Shown here: in pieces, positions 16,488 through 21,389 of the stretch
How positions within the stretch are numbered: the stretch's first letter is position 1
Layout of the letters: the number at the start of each line of letters is the position of its first letter
From: Rickettsiales bacterium
Lineage (GTDB): Bacteria; Pseudomonadota; Alphaproteobacteria; Rs-D84
Length of the DNA: 63,366 bases
Assembly (NCBI GenBank): GCA_031260805.1
Contig: JAISKV010000005.1
Coordinates: 1-63,366, forward strand
Reading direction: 5' to 3'
The notes under the pieces: generated by a model
The model's input: only the letters and a program-made list of their open reading frames with translations
The model's database searches: none
Told to the model about the DNA's origin: nothing
Made by a program: the position numbers and the translations under genes

Positions 16488-16525
16488 GGCTTGCCACCCG
16501 AAGCGTCGCAGACGCGAAGGGTGGT
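16488..16525. repeat. Palindrome just past the tRNA-Leu 3' end
   Basis: CCACCC and GGGTGG flank GCGTC and GACGC in a nested inverted repeat, overlapping the encoded CCA end. A further GGTGGC/GCCACC hairpin overlaps it on the left. It may have terminated the original tRNA transcript. Confidence 0.5.
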
Positions 16526-16579
16526 GGGGATAGTGGGACTTGAACCCACACGATTGCAATAATCAAAGGATTTTAAGTC
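16522..16579 (-). pseudogene. 3' half of a disrupted tRNA-Leu(UAA) gene (attL)
   Basis: Read on the minus strand this is a variable arm (GATT/AATC), a T arm (GTGGGTTCAAGTCCCAC), acceptor strand TATCCCC and encoded CCA. The acceptor strand pairs with GGGGATA of the half gene at 21261-21302. Joined at the shared 13-bp core, the halves give an 87-nt tRNA-Leu(UAA). The crossover lies in the anticodon arm. Confidence 0.85.
16567..16579. other. Integration core, left copy (attL)
   Basis: AGGATTTTAAGTC is repeated exactly at 21261-21273 in direct orientation and marks the ends of the 4.7-kb element. It covers the anticodon loop. Confidence 0.85.
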
Positions 16580-16669
16580 TTTTAATCATTGCTTTAACAA
16601 TCTTGATTAAACTTAAATAATCCTTGATATTCCGCCGATTCTGCTTTATAATTACTTTAACCAAATGCG

Positions 16670-16725
16670 GTAGCAAACAACCATTTTTAGTAGCAAATAC
16701 CGCTTTTAGTAGCAAATAGGTAGCA
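16670..16725. repeat. TAGCAAA direct repeats: probable integrase arm sites
   Basis: Three TAGCAAA copies precede the integrase start codon. The 18-mer AGTAGCAAATAGGTAGCA at 16708-16725 recurs exactly at 21139-21156 near the other end. Shared arm-type sites at both ends are expected for a tyrosine-recombinase element. Confidence 0.7.
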
Positions 16726-16727
16726 GA

Positions 16728-17927
16728 ATGAAGCCCAACCATATCCACTTTACAGAAAAGAGTTTAGCAGACTTGTCCACCCCAGCGCAAGGCGAAAATC
16801 AAGCCGTGTATTATGATAAGAATAATACAGACGGCTTGTGCGTGATTATTACCTATGGCGGAACAAAGACCTATTATGCCTATATGAAACACCTGGGCAG
16901 ACCATGCAGGGTTAAAATCGGGCGCGTCGGGGATACAAAACTTGTAAATGCACGCAAGAAAGCCCACGAACTGAAAGAGTTGTCTATCAACGGCAAAGAC
17001 CCCAGTGCAAACCGCCGCGACGAATTGCGCGATATGACACTGAAAACATTCTATGAAACACAATACAAGCCGCGCCATGGCGAAATCCGCAAAAAGGAAT
17101 CGTCCCAGGCCCGCGACGAAACGATTTTTAATAATTACCTTTCTGATTTCCACAGCCGTAAAATGATAACGATAAAGCGCGACGAAATAGAACGGCTACA
17201 CAATGACCTAAATAAACGGCTTAGCCCATATACGGCTAATCGTATGTTATCCCTTCTTAGACACATGTATAATATAGCGACTATATGGGGTTATCCCGCA
17301 GACAGAGGCAATCCAACGGCAGGGATTCATAAGTTCCCAGAAAAAAGCCGCGACCGCTTTCTGTCCCCCGACGAATTGACGCGATTTTTTGCCGCGCTGA
17401 ACAAAGAAACCCATACGATGTTCAAGAACTATGTTCTGTTATCCCTTTTTATTGGCCAACGCGCCGACAATATGATTTCTATGCGCTGGGATAATATAGA
17501 CCTGCAAAATGGATTTGTGTATTTTCCCGACACGAAAAACAACGAACCGCACCGCGTGCCATTGTCGGCCACTGCAACAAAGATTTTAACCGATATGAAA
17601 AAGACGGCGAAAAGTGGGTGGGTGTTCCCCGCGCCATGGGACAAGACCGCAGGACAACATATAGGCGATTTTCGTAATCCATGGATAAGATTCAGAGAAC
17701 AAATAGGAATGCCAGATTTGCGAATTCATGATTTGCGTCGGACACTTGGCAGTTATCAAGCGATAGAAGGTGCGAGTTTGTCGGTTATCGGTAAATCATT
17801 GGGACATAAATCCCTGGCCGCAACAAATGTTTATGCCCGCCTGCTAAATGACCCAGTTTTAGAATCCATGCAAAAAGCCGAGGATAAAATGCTAAGTTAT
17901 ATCAAGTCCGACGATACAGAAAAATAA
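16728..17927 (+). CDS. Tyrosine site-specific integrase
   Basis: The 399-residue protein has the P4-like layout: an N-terminal arm-binding region, a core-binding region around residues 100-190 and a C-terminal catalytic domain. Catalytic residues are visible as Arg in GQRADN, HDLRR, GHKSLAATN and the tyrosine in NVYARL. It lies next to the left attachment core with TAGCAAA repeats directly upstream. It should catalyse integration into the tRNA-Leu anticodon arm. Confidence 0.93.
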   Translation: MKPNHIHFTEKSLADLSTPAQGENQAVYYDKNNTDGLCVIITYGGTKTYYAYMKHLGRPCRVKIGRVGDTKLVNARKKAHELKELSINGKDPSANRRDELRDMTLKTFYETQYKPRHGEIRKKESSQARDETIFNNYLSDFHSRKMITIKRDEIERLHNDLNKRLSPYTANRMLSLLRHMYNIATIWGYPADRGNPTAGIHKFPEKSRDRFLSPDELTRFFAALNKETHTMFKNYVLLSLFIGQRADNMISMRWDNIDLQNGFVYFPDTKNNEPHRVPLSATATKILTDMKKTAKSGWVFPAPWDKTAGQHIGDFRNPWIRFREQIGMPDLRIHDLRRTLGSYQAIEGASLSVIGKSLGHKSLAATNVYARLLNDPVLESMQKAEDKMLSYIKSDDTEK

Positions 17928-17936
17928 TGCGCTGAC

Positions 17937-18731
17937 CTATTGTTTGTATTTTTCGCTGACGGGGGTATAATTTGACGGCTGATAGCGGCTTATTTTATAT
18001 TTTCCGACCTTGCCCTGCATATTCTCGCCTTGAAGTATCTGTGAAACATCATAGGTCGTTTTCCAGGCATTCGCAATATGCGACAATGAGGAATAGCCCC
18101 CTTGGTGTTCTTTGTATCCAAATTTGGCGTTCAGTTGCAGAGTGTAGTCCTCGCCATTGTATAAATCTGAATATAAAGAACCCTTGCCATTATTCTCTGA
18201 CCATGTATCGGTTAAAATTCCATTTTTTATATCGTCATAATTATTATAGGCAATAAATTTCATGCTATAACTCTCATAGTATCTTGTTTCATTATAAACA
18301 GATGTTGTATAGAGGCCGTAGTTTCCCGATGTATAAGCAACTGGTCTAGTTGATTGTGAACTATACAACCAATTTGACAATGGGGCTATAAAACTAAATC
18401 CGTCTTGTGCGGCAACAATCGCGGCCGCGACAAGCAGTTTACCCTGCGGGTCGCGACTTTCAACATATCCGCCCTTAAAAGACACTTCGTATTCTTTGAT
18501 GTTCAATCTTTCGCCCAGCCGTATATCCTTTTTATAGCATTCGTCTTTTTCAAGTGGAATACATCCCGCAGTATCCTTTTTATTTGCGGGCGCGAAAAAA
18601 GCCCCGTCGTTGTTGGTTGTGCTTTCTCTTGCCTCAATATAATCAAAAACATTATTGTCGGTTATGCGCCTATCTGACACACCGCCGCAAGCCGAAACAA
18701 ATATAGATAAAATCAAAATTAGTTTTTTCAT
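17937..18731 (-). CDS. Element-encoded lipoprotein of unknown function
   Basis: The 264-residue protein has a lipoprotein signal with lipobox VSAC (cysteine at residue 15). The mature part is rich in Tyr, Ser and Asn, has a short hydrophobic run around residues 100-115 and two cysteines near 57 and 65. No family is recognised. The start is supported by AGGAG six bases upstream. Its leader contains a terminator and competing hairpins. As cargo on a mobile element it may alter the cell surface; this is inference. Confidence 0.7.
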   Translation of the reverse strand: MKKLILILSIFVSACGGVSDRRITDNNVFDYIEARESTTNNDGAFFAPANKKDTAGCIPLEKDECYKKDIRLGERLNIKEYEVSFKGGYVESRDPQGKLLVAAAIVAAQDGFSFIAPLSNWLYSSQSTRPVAYTSGNYGLYTTSVYNETRYYESYSMKFIAYNNYDDIKNGILTDTWSENNGKGSLYSDLYNGEDYTLQLNAKFGYKEHQGGYSSLSHIANAWKTTYDVSQILQGENMQGKVGKYKISRYQPSNYTPVSEKYKQ

Positions 18732-18742
18732 ATCTAACTCCT

Positions 18743-18772
18743 AAATAAAAAACCGCCAACAGGAATTGGCGG
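18743..18772 (-). terminator. Intrinsic terminator in the lipoprotein leader
   Basis: On the minus strand CCGCCAA, a six-base loop and TTGGCGG are followed by TTTTTTATTT, ending just before the AGGAG ribosome site. A transcript reaching the gene must read through it, which suggests attenuation. Confidence 0.75.
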
Positions 18773-18784
18773 TCGGGATGTTAG

Positions 18785-18863
18785 AAAAATCATGATTTAG
18801 TATGACCTCGCAGTTTTCGGGTTGCCCCTATTTTATGACTGCGACAACCCGACCATGATTTTT
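18785..18863 (-). ncRNA. Candidate structured leader RNA with interleaved stems
   Basis: Four complementary segments alternate: TCGCAGT (18808-18814), TCGGGTTG (18817-18824), ACTGCGA (18838-18844), CAACCCGA (18845-18852). The two stems interleave, so they form a pseudoknot or exclude each other. An outer repeat AAAAATCATG/CATGATTTTT (18785-18794/18854-18863) encloses them. On the minus strand the block leads into the terminator and then the lipoprotein gene. Confidence 0.5.
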
Positions 18864-19217
18864 TTAATGAAATTACGGCCAGGAAATATCGGCATACAAG
18901 ACACCGATATTGGGAAATACAATGCAAGGCATCGCTAAATCAAAGAACTTTTCTAAGGTTCCCGAACCCACTTCCCAATGGATTCAAGACAAAGTATACA
19001 TTCTAAAACATAAAAAATAAACAAATAAATTGTGCATAGGGTGGGCAAAATTTTAACAGAGGCCCTGGCACACCCCTTTTAAGAATTATTGGGGCGGGTA
19101 AGTGGAATATGGGGGCATACACATTCGCACAAACCACGCGGAAAACAGGCAAAAAATAATATGTAATTGACGCAGGCCCCCGTTTGCCTGTATAATCTAT
19201 CTGAAAGATAATACAAA
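18864..19217. other. Non-coding stretch of the integrative element
   Basis: No convincing gene is present. The 22-bp sequence at 19034-19055 is repeated in inverted orientation at 20020-20041. Short frames on the minus strand lack ribosome sites and family resemblance. Confidence 0.5.
19034..19055 (+). repeat. 22-bp inverted repeat, left copy
   Basis: GCATAGGGTGGGCA followed by AAATTTTA matches the complement of 20020-20041 at 21 of 22 positions. The two copies bracket the HUH-like Rep gene and its palindromes, so they may be binding sites of a replication or regulatory protein. Confidence 0.6.
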
Positions 19218-19261
19218 CCAGAAATAAGCGATGTGTGCCTGCACACATCGCTTATTTCTGG
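19218..19261. repeat. Perfect 21-bp inverted repeat with a 2-base loop
   Basis: CCAGAAATAAGCG/CGCTTATTTCTGG arms extend without mismatch to a CT loop. It could extrude as a cruciform and is a candidate replication-initiation site for the adjacent Rep-like protein, or a strong hairpin RNA. Confidence 0.8.
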
Positions 19262-19311
19262 GCGGGACTTTAACAATCGCGTATTTTTCCCGTAATTCTG
19301 GGATTTTTAAT

Positions 19312-19359
19312 ACCGACACGCCATAACCAGCGGCTAGCCGCTGGTTATGGCGTGTCGGT
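19312..19359. repeat. Perfect 48-bp palindrome
   Basis: The sequence is its own complement from end to end, centred on CTAG (GCGGCTAGCCGC). It covers the last codons of the Rep-like gene, whose C-terminal Pro-Thr-Asp tail it encodes. It is a candidate origin or terminator. Confidence 0.85.
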
Positions 19360-19851
19360 TGGTGTCGGTTTTAGTGATAAATTAAACAATTCCTCGGACG
19401 GAATCCAAACACTGGTATCTATTCGTCTTGTTCCGTCGGGCCATATATGTTTAAGAACATACTTGTGTAATCGCGCGGGTGTTTTTTTAATTCGTAATAC
19501 TAATAAATCTGGAATTGGCTCGCGCGGCTTTTTCTTTGCCGTTTGGAATTTATTGTGTATTTCTCTTTTGTTGTGTGCCTGGTCTTTTAATAATATATGC
19601 CCATGCCAACCATAGACGGCGTTCTTTTCTGCAATCATTCTGAAAGTGATGTGATTACGCCTCCACCTTGCCCCCAACATTGCTCGTTCCCACCGCCCCA
19701 TAACCACACGAACATATCTTTTCAATGTTTCAATATCTTTCGGTTTATGGTTTGTATCAAATTGCAGTGGTATATGAAAGGTCGGCTCAAAACTTGATAA
19801 ATCGTCATATATCGCTTGTCTGATTTGCTCGTGCTGTCGGTTCATTTTCAT
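19345..19851 (-). CDS. HUH-like replication initiator of the element
   Basis: The 168-residue protein is basic. It contains a WHGHILLK segment near residue 80, resembling the two-histidine metal motif, and a YVLK segment near residue 130, resembling the YxxK catalytic motif of HUH endonucleases. The small size fits rolling-circle Rep proteins. Two ATG codons lie close together behind AAAAGGGAT; the first was taken. The flanking perfect palindromes strengthen a replication role, but the motif spacing and the glycine between the histidines leave doubt. Confidence 0.5.
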   Translation of the reverse strand: MKMNRQHEQIRQAIYDDLSSFEPTFHIPLQFDTNHKPKDIETLKRYVRVVMGRWERAMLGARWRRNHITFRMIAEKNAVYGWHGHILLKDQAHNKREIHNKFQTAKKKPREPIPDLLVLRIKKTPARLHKYVLKHIWPDGTRRIDTSVWIPSEELFNLSLKPTPTDTP

Positions 19852-20019
19852 ATCCCTTTTGTTGTATGTGAAAACTGGAAAAGTTTTCAATTTTCCTTAT
19901 TGTTTTTCAGACATTCGCCGCCTTTGCCAGTCATTAAAACACGATGCAAATGCGGACGAAATAAAGCAGTATTTGCGCGGGGCCATAAATTGAAAAAAGG
20001 GGCTGGGGTGGCACAATTC

Positions 20020-20041
20020 TAAAATTATGCCCACCCTATGC
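20020..20041 (-). repeat. 22-bp inverted repeat, right copy
   Basis: This is the complement of the sequence at 19034-19055 with one mismatch. It overlaps the 3' end of the AlpA-like gene. Confidence 0.6.
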
Positions 20042-20251
20042 CCCTTCAACTTTGTTTTCTGTTTGCGACGCAATCCATATATCCAGGTCTGCCTTGCGGT
20101 ATCTGATACATTTTCCCCAACGCACGAATGGAATTTTTTGTTTCCCATAATGCCGCCAAGAGTTCAGAGTGCCGATAGTCGTGCCAAGATACTTTGCCGC
20201 CTCTGTTTGCGACATAAGAACCGCCGAACCTGTATTGTCTTGATTTTCCAT
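20036..20251 (-). CDS. AlpA/excisionase-like helix-turn-helix protein
   Basis: The 71-residue protein has the MerR/AlpA-type fold: MSQTEAAKYLGTTIGTLNSWR forms the winged helix-turn-helix, followed by IPFVRWGKCIRYRKADLDIWI. Such proteins act as excision factors or regulators of integrative elements. The start was set at the ATG six bases behind AAAGGA; a GTG eight codons upstream is less likely. Confidence 0.75.
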   Translation of the reverse strand: MENQDNTGSAVLMSQTEAAKYLGTTIGTLNSWRHYGKQKIPFVRWGKCIRYRKADLDIWIASQTENKVEGA

Positions 20252-20352
20252 TTTCATTTCCTTTCGTATAAACACAGCAGAATCGCCTTGTTTACTTGTA
20301 TTTTTTCATTTGGAAAAATCCGTGTATAGAAAAATAATAAAAGTATAAAAAT

Positions 20353-20379
20353 ATGTAAAAAATCCGCAGAAGGCGGATT
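20353..20379 (-). terminator. Intrinsic terminator of the tRNA-Leu/unknown-protein transcript
   Basis: On the minus strand AATCCGC, a five-base loop and GCGGATT are followed by six T residues, 40 bases past the stop codon of the upstream gene. Confidence 0.75.
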
Positions 20380-20419
20380 GGGATACTTTTATTATTTGGA
20401 ATAAGAGTATAACGAATCG

Positions 20420-20965
20420 TTATAGCAGCGATTCAATTTCAAGAATCTTTTGTCGCTGTGCATCCGTCAAAGGTTTATTGTTTTTGCGTGCCAGAGTTAT
20501 ACTGATATAAGACAGCGGATTATCCAACATTCCATAATACCTGGTATAAAGATTTTCTGCGCTTTCTTTATATCCGTATTCCGCTTTTATATCTTTCATT
20601 ATATCAGTCAATTTTGTTTTTTTCGGGAATTTGGCTTTATGTTGCTCAACGCGGTTATAAAGTAATACGCCGTCATTACCAAGCCACTTAGTGGGCTGTC
20701 CTGGTGTCTTTACTTCCTCTCGGTGCATAAACCCAACAATGCCGTATTCAACGGCCATTTTTTGTATAAATTCTCTAACGACTTTGGGTAATTTTTTGGG
20801 TCTGACAAGACCATATTTCTCAAACAATGCCTGTTCTTTTTCAACCAAACAAGAATCCAGTGTATCATGTGCAACAGCGGGGCTTATCTTTCGGAGGCCC
20901 TCTATAAAAACTTTCGGGGGAAGTGGTCTGTCTAAGACACTATCTTTTATCGGTCTTTTGCCCAT
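20420..20965 (-). CDS. Mobile-element protein of unknown function
   Basis: The 181-residue protein starts at MGKRPIKDSV, eighteen bases after the CCA end of tRNA-Leu. A longer frame would run through the tRNA gene and is rejected. The C-terminal half has GQPTKWLGNDGVLLYNRVEQ and a later LYTRYYG; I associate this layout with small phage and element proteins but cannot name it. No signal peptide or membrane segment is seen. It is probably co-transcribed with the tRNA. Confidence 0.6.
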   Translation of the reverse strand: MGKRPIKDSVLDRPLPPKVFIEGLRKISPAVAHDTLDSCLVEKEQALFEKYGLVRPKKLPKVVREFIQKMAVEYGIVGFMHREEVKTPGQPTKWLGNDGVLLYNRVEQHKAKFPKKTKLTDIMKDIKAEYGYKESAENLYTRYYGMLDNPLSYISITLARKNNKPLTDAQRQKILEIESLL

Positions 20966-20982
20966 GTGTAGTTCTCTTAAAA

Positions 20983-21069
20983 TGGTGGTCTTGGCGGGAC
21001 TTGAACCCGCACGAGTGCAATACTCAATGGATTTTAAGTCCACAGCGTCTACCATTCCGCCACAAGACC
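20983..21069 (-). tRNA. tRNA-Leu(UAA), intact, carried by the element
   Basis: The 87-nt gene folds as a complete type II tRNA: acceptor GGTCTTG/CAAGACC, anticodon loop CTTAAAA with UAA, variable arm GAGT/ACTC, T arm GCGGGTTCAAGTCCCGC and encoded CCA. It has the same length as the disrupted host tRNA-Leu reconstructed from the element ends but a different acceptor stem. It presumably replaces the broken gene. Confidence 0.93.
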
Positions 21070-21079
21070 ATTTCCGAAA

Positions 21080-21108
21080 ACTATACTTTACTAATGTTAA
21101 ATTTTCAA
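21080..21108 (-). promoter_or_regulatory. Promoter of the element tRNA-Leu
   Basis: On the minus strand TTGAAA and TATAGT are 17 bases apart, ten bases before the mature tRNA 5' end. Confidence 0.7.
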
Positions 21109-21138
21109 GAACGAAAATCAACACTTTTTATTGCCGTC

Positions 21139-21156
21139 AGTAGCAAATAGGTAGCA
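21139..21156. repeat. 18-bp arm-type repeat, right end of the element
   Basis: AGTAGCAAATAGGTAGCA is identical to 16708-16725 and in the same orientation. It lies between the tRNA-Leu and the right attachment core. Confidence 0.75.
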
Positions 21157-21260
21157 AAAAGAAAAATTTAGGAAATTGCAAATTTATAACAATCGTCGCA
21201 AACCCGCTTAAATCTAATCTTTTCTGGCAGATTTACAATCCATATAATCGTAATGATTAC

Positions 21261-21302
21261 AGGATTTTAAGTCCTCAGCGTCTACCGTTCCGCCATATCC
21301 CC
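21261..21302 (-). pseudogene. 5' half of a disrupted tRNA-Leu(UAA) gene (attR)
   Basis: Read on the minus strand: acceptor GGGGATA, D arm GGCGGAACGGTAGACGC and anticodon arm AGGACTTAAAATCCT. Beyond the core, element sequence offers a TAATC/GATTA variable-arm-like stem but no proper T arm or matching acceptor strand, so this end is not restored to a functional tRNA. The core copy is 21261-21273. Confidence 0.85.
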
Positions 21303-21313
21303 GGCGTTGTGCA

Positions 21314-21341
21314 ATATTAACACAGATAAAACGAAAATCAA
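21314..21341 (-). promoter_or_regulatory. Original promoter of the disrupted tRNA-Leu
   Basis: On the minus strand TTGATT and TAATAT are 16 bases apart and 11 bases before the old tRNA 5' end. It now drives the broken half gene into the element. Confidence 0.55.
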
Positions 21342-21389
21342 CGGATTTTTATTGATTTGCCGCGAACAATTAAACATCGTTCATGCCAA

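Follow-up and report, generated by a model that had tools for sequence, protein, structure and literature searches.

The DNA analysed here, referred to as the window, is a stretch of 63,366 nucleotides from a Rickettsiales bacterium (contig JAISKV010000005.1) in which the gene for tRNA-Leu(UAA) is split by what appears to be a small integrative element. The two halves of the host gene lie at the ends of a core-to-core segment of 4,694 bp that has a guanine-cytosine (GC) content of about 0.40, versus about 0.52 outside, with a step in composition at both ends (Table 1). Read on the minus strand, the host tRNA runs from 21302 into the core at 21273-21261 and is taken up again by the core at 16579-16567, ending at 16522. 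When the flanks are joined by script, ARAGORN reads the rejoined halves (GGGGATATGGCGGAACGGTAGACGCTGAG-GACTTAAAATCCT-TTGATTATTGCAATCGTGTGGGTTCAAGTCCCACTATCCCCACCA) as an 87-nt tRNA-Leu(taa), which is identical at 86 of 87 positions to an intact gene in a related genome (G002:C8:4883-4969). The intact Leu(UAA) genes of G001 and G002 are 98-99% identical to the host gene, and most of the 183 family genomes hold an intact copy that is 93-99% identical. Gene order around the tRNA is too poorly conserved among relatives for a syntenic empty-site test, and this comparison was made by tRNA-level match in place of synteny. An earlier note on this DNA had placed the halves of one tRNA-Leu around an exact 13-bp core and held that neither end restores a tRNA, proposing tRNA prediction across both junctions as a check. 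The core and halves are correct to the base, and both ARAGORN and Rfam are silent at the two junctions, the right one included; the sole Leu(UAA) that they call in the window is the internal gene at 20983-21069(-).

Table 1. Features of the element and of the host tRNA gene that it splits (positions in the window)
Feature	Position	Strand	Remark
3' half of host tRNA-Leu(UAA), displaced to integrase end	16522..16579	-	query 30-87, 100%
Left attachment core AGGATTTTAAGTC	16567..16579	.	exact 13-bp direct repeat with 21261-21273
Arm-type repeat AGTAGCAAATAGGTAGCA, integrase end	16708..16732	.	92% identical to 21139-21163
Tyrosine integrase, anticodon-loop type, 399 amino acids (aa), arm-binding domain	16728..17927	+	PF00589 1.2e-21, PF13356 1.2e-9
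Putative lipoprotein, 264 aa	17937..18731	-	signal MKKLILILSIFVSACGG
Small HUH Rep-like endonuclease	19345..19854	-	family-invariant H84-x-H86 and Y132-x-x-K135
Small HTH_17 protein, AlpA/Xis (excisionase)-like	20036..20275	-	PF12728 1.5e-8; phrog_66 excisionase and regulator 2.1e-9
Terminator-like site after the 182-aa open reading frame (ORF)	20379-20361		
ORF behind replacement tRNA, 182 aa	20420..20968	-	start 14 nt past tRNA; homologues in 4/200 other genomes of the order
Replacement tRNA-Leu(UAA), complete with CCA, acceptor GGTCTTG	20983..21069	-	ARAGORN; Rfam 62.3 bits
Promoter-like site of replacement tRNA, TTGAAA-N17-TATAGT	21080..21108	-	10/12 matches
Arm-type repeat AGTAGCAAATAGGTAGCA, tRNA end, core on one side, replacement tRNA on the other	21139..21163		
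Stretch resembling decayed tRNA-Leu 3' half, adjoining right core	21237..21260	-	in-register match
Right attachment core AGGATTTTAAGTC	21261..21273	.	exact 13-bp direct repeat with 16567-16579
5' half of host tRNA-Leu(UAA): acceptor GGGGATA, D arm, anticodon arm to core	21261..21302	-	pairs up with 3' half as perfect tRNA

The earlier note also reported an intact tRNA-Leu(UAA) with its own promoter about 190 bases from the right core. This gene is confirmed at a distance of 191 nt, and a promoter-like site lies upstream of it; promoter-like sites in the region number 5 versus 4.1 expected in shuffles, position being the main support for the one at 21108-21080. As the tRNA and the ORF behind it have this promoter-like site before them and a terminator-like site after them, they are probably co-transcribed. 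The replacement tRNA matches the host gene at 72 of 87 positions and matches the replacement tRNA of a comparable element in a relative, G005, at 83 of 87. All four differences between the window and G005 replacements lie in the variable arm as paired changes, as expected for a selected function of the replacement tRNAs. Both carry T-A at the anticodon-stem pair 28-42, where nearly all native genes have A-T; among the 201 genomes of the order, T28-A42 is found only in these two elements and at the native locus of G017, which belongs to the same genus as G005. The replacement tRNA of a third element, in genome G025, has two anticodon-stem pairs swapped. In all three replacements the bases directly outside the core are unlike those of the target while the fold is kept, and the window replacement keeps 12 of the 13 core bases. 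The swapped stem pairs may make the replacement a poor integration target, and a comparable purpose was proposed in the case of Rhizobium phage vTRX32-1 (PMC8631192).

The genome of this bacterium is represented by 729 kb in 15 contigs. The search for further tRNA-Leu(UAA) genes proposed in the earlier note returned none among 34 tRNA matches in this 93.5% complete assembly, and exact copies of GACTTAAAATCC are present only at the three known places. We infer that the host genome holds no other Leu(UAA). The near-complete genomes of relatives G009, G027 and G033 have one Leu(UAA) match each, and 34 of the window's 38 long ORFs contain UUA, which makes up 121 of 15,567 codons. Since UUA is widely used and near-complete relatives have a single match, dependence is likely, and the cell very probably relies on the replacement tRNA of the element. 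This supports the dependence that the earlier note had raised as a possibility, as the sole intact gene detected lies inside the element.

The segment is, with high probability, an integrative element of 4.7 kb whose integration is tRNA-dependent and which supplies a tRNA-Leu(UAA) of its own as replacement. The locus contains a split host gene, a core, junctions devoid of a tRNA, an intact internal tRNA, an integrase and arm repeats. Two elements in relatives that share this anatomy but have other cores, described below, and the experimentally proven phage precedent also speak for this reading. Recombination by the integrase would take place between a short attP core and the same 13 bp within the host anticodon arm; because attP lacks the remainder of the tRNA, two dead halves of the host gene would result. 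The cell would then survive on the complete tRNA-Leu(UAA) of the element, located just inside the attP arm with an apparent promoter of its own and an ORF behind it, and precise excision would regenerate the host gene. Several points weigh against this reading. The assembly lacks several isoacceptors, for example Leu(CAA), which is present in a single-contig relative; together with 93.5% completeness, this leaves the absence of a second Leu(UAA) copy short of certain. Additionally, both the expression and charging of the replacement tRNA and the mobility of the element today are presumed from sequence.

The earlier note went further and proposed that the element is stabilised like an addiction system, with its loss depriving the cell of its only tRNA-Leu(UAA). 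That the only intact gene detected sits in the element speaks for this, but core-to-core recombination is predicted to give back the exact host gene, so loss by excision should be harmless and not lethal. The integrase and the HTH/Xis-like gene look intact, and death would be expected only from an imprecise deletion in which the internal tRNA is lost and the halves stay apart. We therefore regard addiction as improbable.

To place the element among its relatives, intact and partial tRNAs were sought in the neighbourhood of related integrases (80 loci from named genomes, 74 viral loci, plus loci from relatives). The family targets the anticodon loops of many tRNAs (Met-CAT, Lys, Thr, Asn, Ala, Arg and Ile), and the usual layout has a 3' half displaced to the integrase end and an intact tRNA at the far end with no extra 5' half, the displaced half usually being identical to the 3' half of the far-end tRNA. 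The 22 mapped relatives whose integrases belong to this family rebuild the tRNA in the canonical way, which fits the statement of the earlier note that most tRNA-targeting elements rebuild the gene at one end. Three split-and-replace elements were found, each with two orphan halves and a separate intact tRNA: that of the window; a 10-kb element of G005 (L127/L208) in Leu-UAA, with an 11-bp core (GACTTAAAATC) and the replacement lying 135 bp inward of the 5' half; and a 7-kb element of G025 (L162) in Thr-GGT, with a 9-bp core (CTTGGTAAG) and the replacement adjoining the integrase. The integrase of G007, sister to the G005 integrase, has a 3' half next to it, and the contig stops there; in G011 and G058 an intact tRNA adjoins a related integrase. 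None of the 74 viral integrase relatives showed the split-and-replace arrangement. Leu(UAA) matches limited to positions 8-87 in some relatives proved to be natural acceptor-stem variants with no elements, and partial tRNAs at contig ends (G178, G126, G179, G105 and G177) were left out of the counts. Among 95 integrases placed in a tree, each of the three split-and-replace members belongs to a different clade with good support, and the 25 labelled rows require three or more changes of mode; the tree is unrooted, with the direction of change resting on the excess of canonical members.

Given the canonical habit of those 22 relatives, one might read the window element as a canonical tRNA-targeting island, with one junction rebuilding a functional tRNA and the internal tRNA as mere cargo. 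The right junction does hold a weak trace of a 3' half: aligned in register with the host 3' half, the stretch past the core agrees with it at 15 positions out of 25 and at 18 out of 35 (p ~0.001 by shuffling), 13 of the 17 mismatches over 35 nt are transitions, and a repeat finder independently lists the stretch as a third copy (76% over 37 nt, core included). However, a match of only 18/35 with no acceptor partner for GGGGATA does not make a tRNA, and the silence of ARAGORN and Rfam at both junctions refutes this explanation at the sequence level, which leaves it very improbable. The remaining junction sides, including the non-rebuilt junctions of G005 and G025, yielded nothing in the same search. 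The relic hints at an ancestor in which the tRNA was rebuilt, but is no proof of one. It is just as improbable that the arrangement is an assembly chimera of two strains, one contributing an empty site and the other the element tRNA. The assembly is in 15 contigs, with an estimated contamination of 0, but the core is exact at both ends, the integrase and arm repeats are in the expected places, GC steps at both ends, and the same arrangement occurs in two other assemblies. Finally, some archaea have split tRNAs, with halves made as separate transcripts and then joined in trans, and the acceptor strands GGGGATA and TATCCCC still pair here, but an intact replacement tRNA is present, pairing across the gap is explained by a recent split, and we know of no bacterial trans-splicing of split tRNA halves, so that this explanation can be practically dismissed.

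The integrase residues R245, K270, H334, R337 and Y369 are invariant in an alignment with 15 relatives and constitute a full catalytic set, and two further GTAGCAAA copies stand immediately before the arm-type repeat at the integrase end. Homologues of the HTH_17 protein are found in most related elements. The model of the Rep-like protein (predicted local distance difference test, pLDDT, 81) gives weak fold matches to Rep origin-binding domains of adeno-associated virus (AAV; PDB best E 0.014) and to phage replication proteins (best E 3e-4), and a role in replication or nicking is probable. Perfect inverted repeats beside its gene (19312-19359, 24+24 bp with no loop; 19218-19261, 21+21 bp with a 2-bp loop) are possibly nicking or replication sites, and a further inverted pair (19034-19055 and 20020-20041) lies on either side of the gene. 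The lipoprotein had no matches in family searches, and the lipoproteins of the two elements compared proved unrelated. Searches of the ORFs of the element turned up no virion genes.

Several further observations were made. A 20-nt stretch with TTGATTTTCGTT occurs upstream of both the replacement and the host tRNA (21110-21129 and 21330-21349, 85% identical) and has no counterpart beside the other tRNA genes retrieved from the same genome; the spare tRNA may have been captured together with its promoter. The native-site tRNA-Leu(UAA) of G017 (L136 1523-1609) has, besides its T28-A42 stem, a T-stem pair otherwise present only in the two element tRNAs; possible explanations are a donor, a resistant target and the scar of a lost element. 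The G005 element encodes a GajB-like UvrD helicase, a NERD nuclease-related protein and one further protein (L127 2341-6084), which are perhaps defence cargo. Beside a related integrase in G008 (L161, upstream of 7743) there is what looks like a 5' half of tRNA-Gly(TCC), the reverse of the usual layout, and no intact tRNA-Gly(TCC) is present in that contig. At L216, 8356 bp downstream of the integrase start, a far-end tRNA-Pro(TGG)-like gene seemingly lacks part of the D arm. Related integrases at L181, L211, L201 and L210 come from assemblies labelled Gemmiger, Prevotella, Flavobacteriaceae and Planctomycetota, labels that likely reflect mis-binned alphaproteobacterial contigs.

A tentative evolutionary scenario, which we put at somewhat below even, is that small integrative elements, and not phages alone, repeatedly switched from canonical to tRNA-dependent integration: a spare tRNA was acquired, the half-tRNA of attP decayed, and the stem of the spare was swapped so that it was no longer a target. 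In that case the decaying half would still be present in the window element and would give an answer on the order of events, a question that the 2024 description of tRNA-dependent lysogeny had not closed. As the three split-and-replace elements can be compared with canonical sisters, the order of origin (spare first or lost reconstruction first) is testable. There is also a practical consequence in that Islander-type finders, which look for one intact tRNA and one fragment, would misplace one end of such elements.

The split-and-replace mechanism is already known and named. tRNA-dependent lysogeny has been described in phages (mBio 2024; PMC10865867), where it was shown with mutants in mycobacteriophages, involves cores of 8-17 bp and has arisen repeatedly; further cases are Lj965 and Rhizobium phages. 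Like the actinobacteriophages Fionnbharth, LeBron and Gaia (PMC10865867), the elements described here have a tyrosine integrase, an attB in a tRNA gene without reconstruction, an element-borne tRNA of the same isotype, a short core (13, 11 and 9 bp here) and several origins inside integrase families that are otherwise canonical. The window element has an integrase and an attB overlapping the host tRNA, a short core and two junctions without a functional tRNA; the mechanism matches but is not lysogeny, as no virion gene is found among its ORFs. Whereas those actinobacteriophages are whole temperate phages, the carriers here are a 4.7-kb element that lacks virion genes and a 10-kb one with the GajB-like helicase, and their hosts are reduced-genome alphaproteobacteria. 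The Rhizobium phage vTRX32-1 family (PMC8631192) is similar in its alphaproteobacterial host, in splitting a tRNA-Leu (at a 12-bp motif) and in bringing a replacement tRNA-Leu, for which a role in avoiding super-integration was proposed. However, that phage is T7-like, complete and about 45 kb, and its replacement lacks the core motif, whereas the window replacement retains most of the core with the flanking stem pairs swapped. Canonical tRNA islands (Islander; PMC4383910) share an anticodon-centred crossover, a 3' fragment at the integrase end and related integrases, but rebuild the tRNA at the distal junction, which the window element does not. What is new here is the small non-phage carrier, together with the recurrence of the split-and-replace arrangement in two relatives. 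tRNA-dependent integration thereby reaches beyond phages, to small elements of another kind and to gut alphaproteobacteria with reduced genomes.

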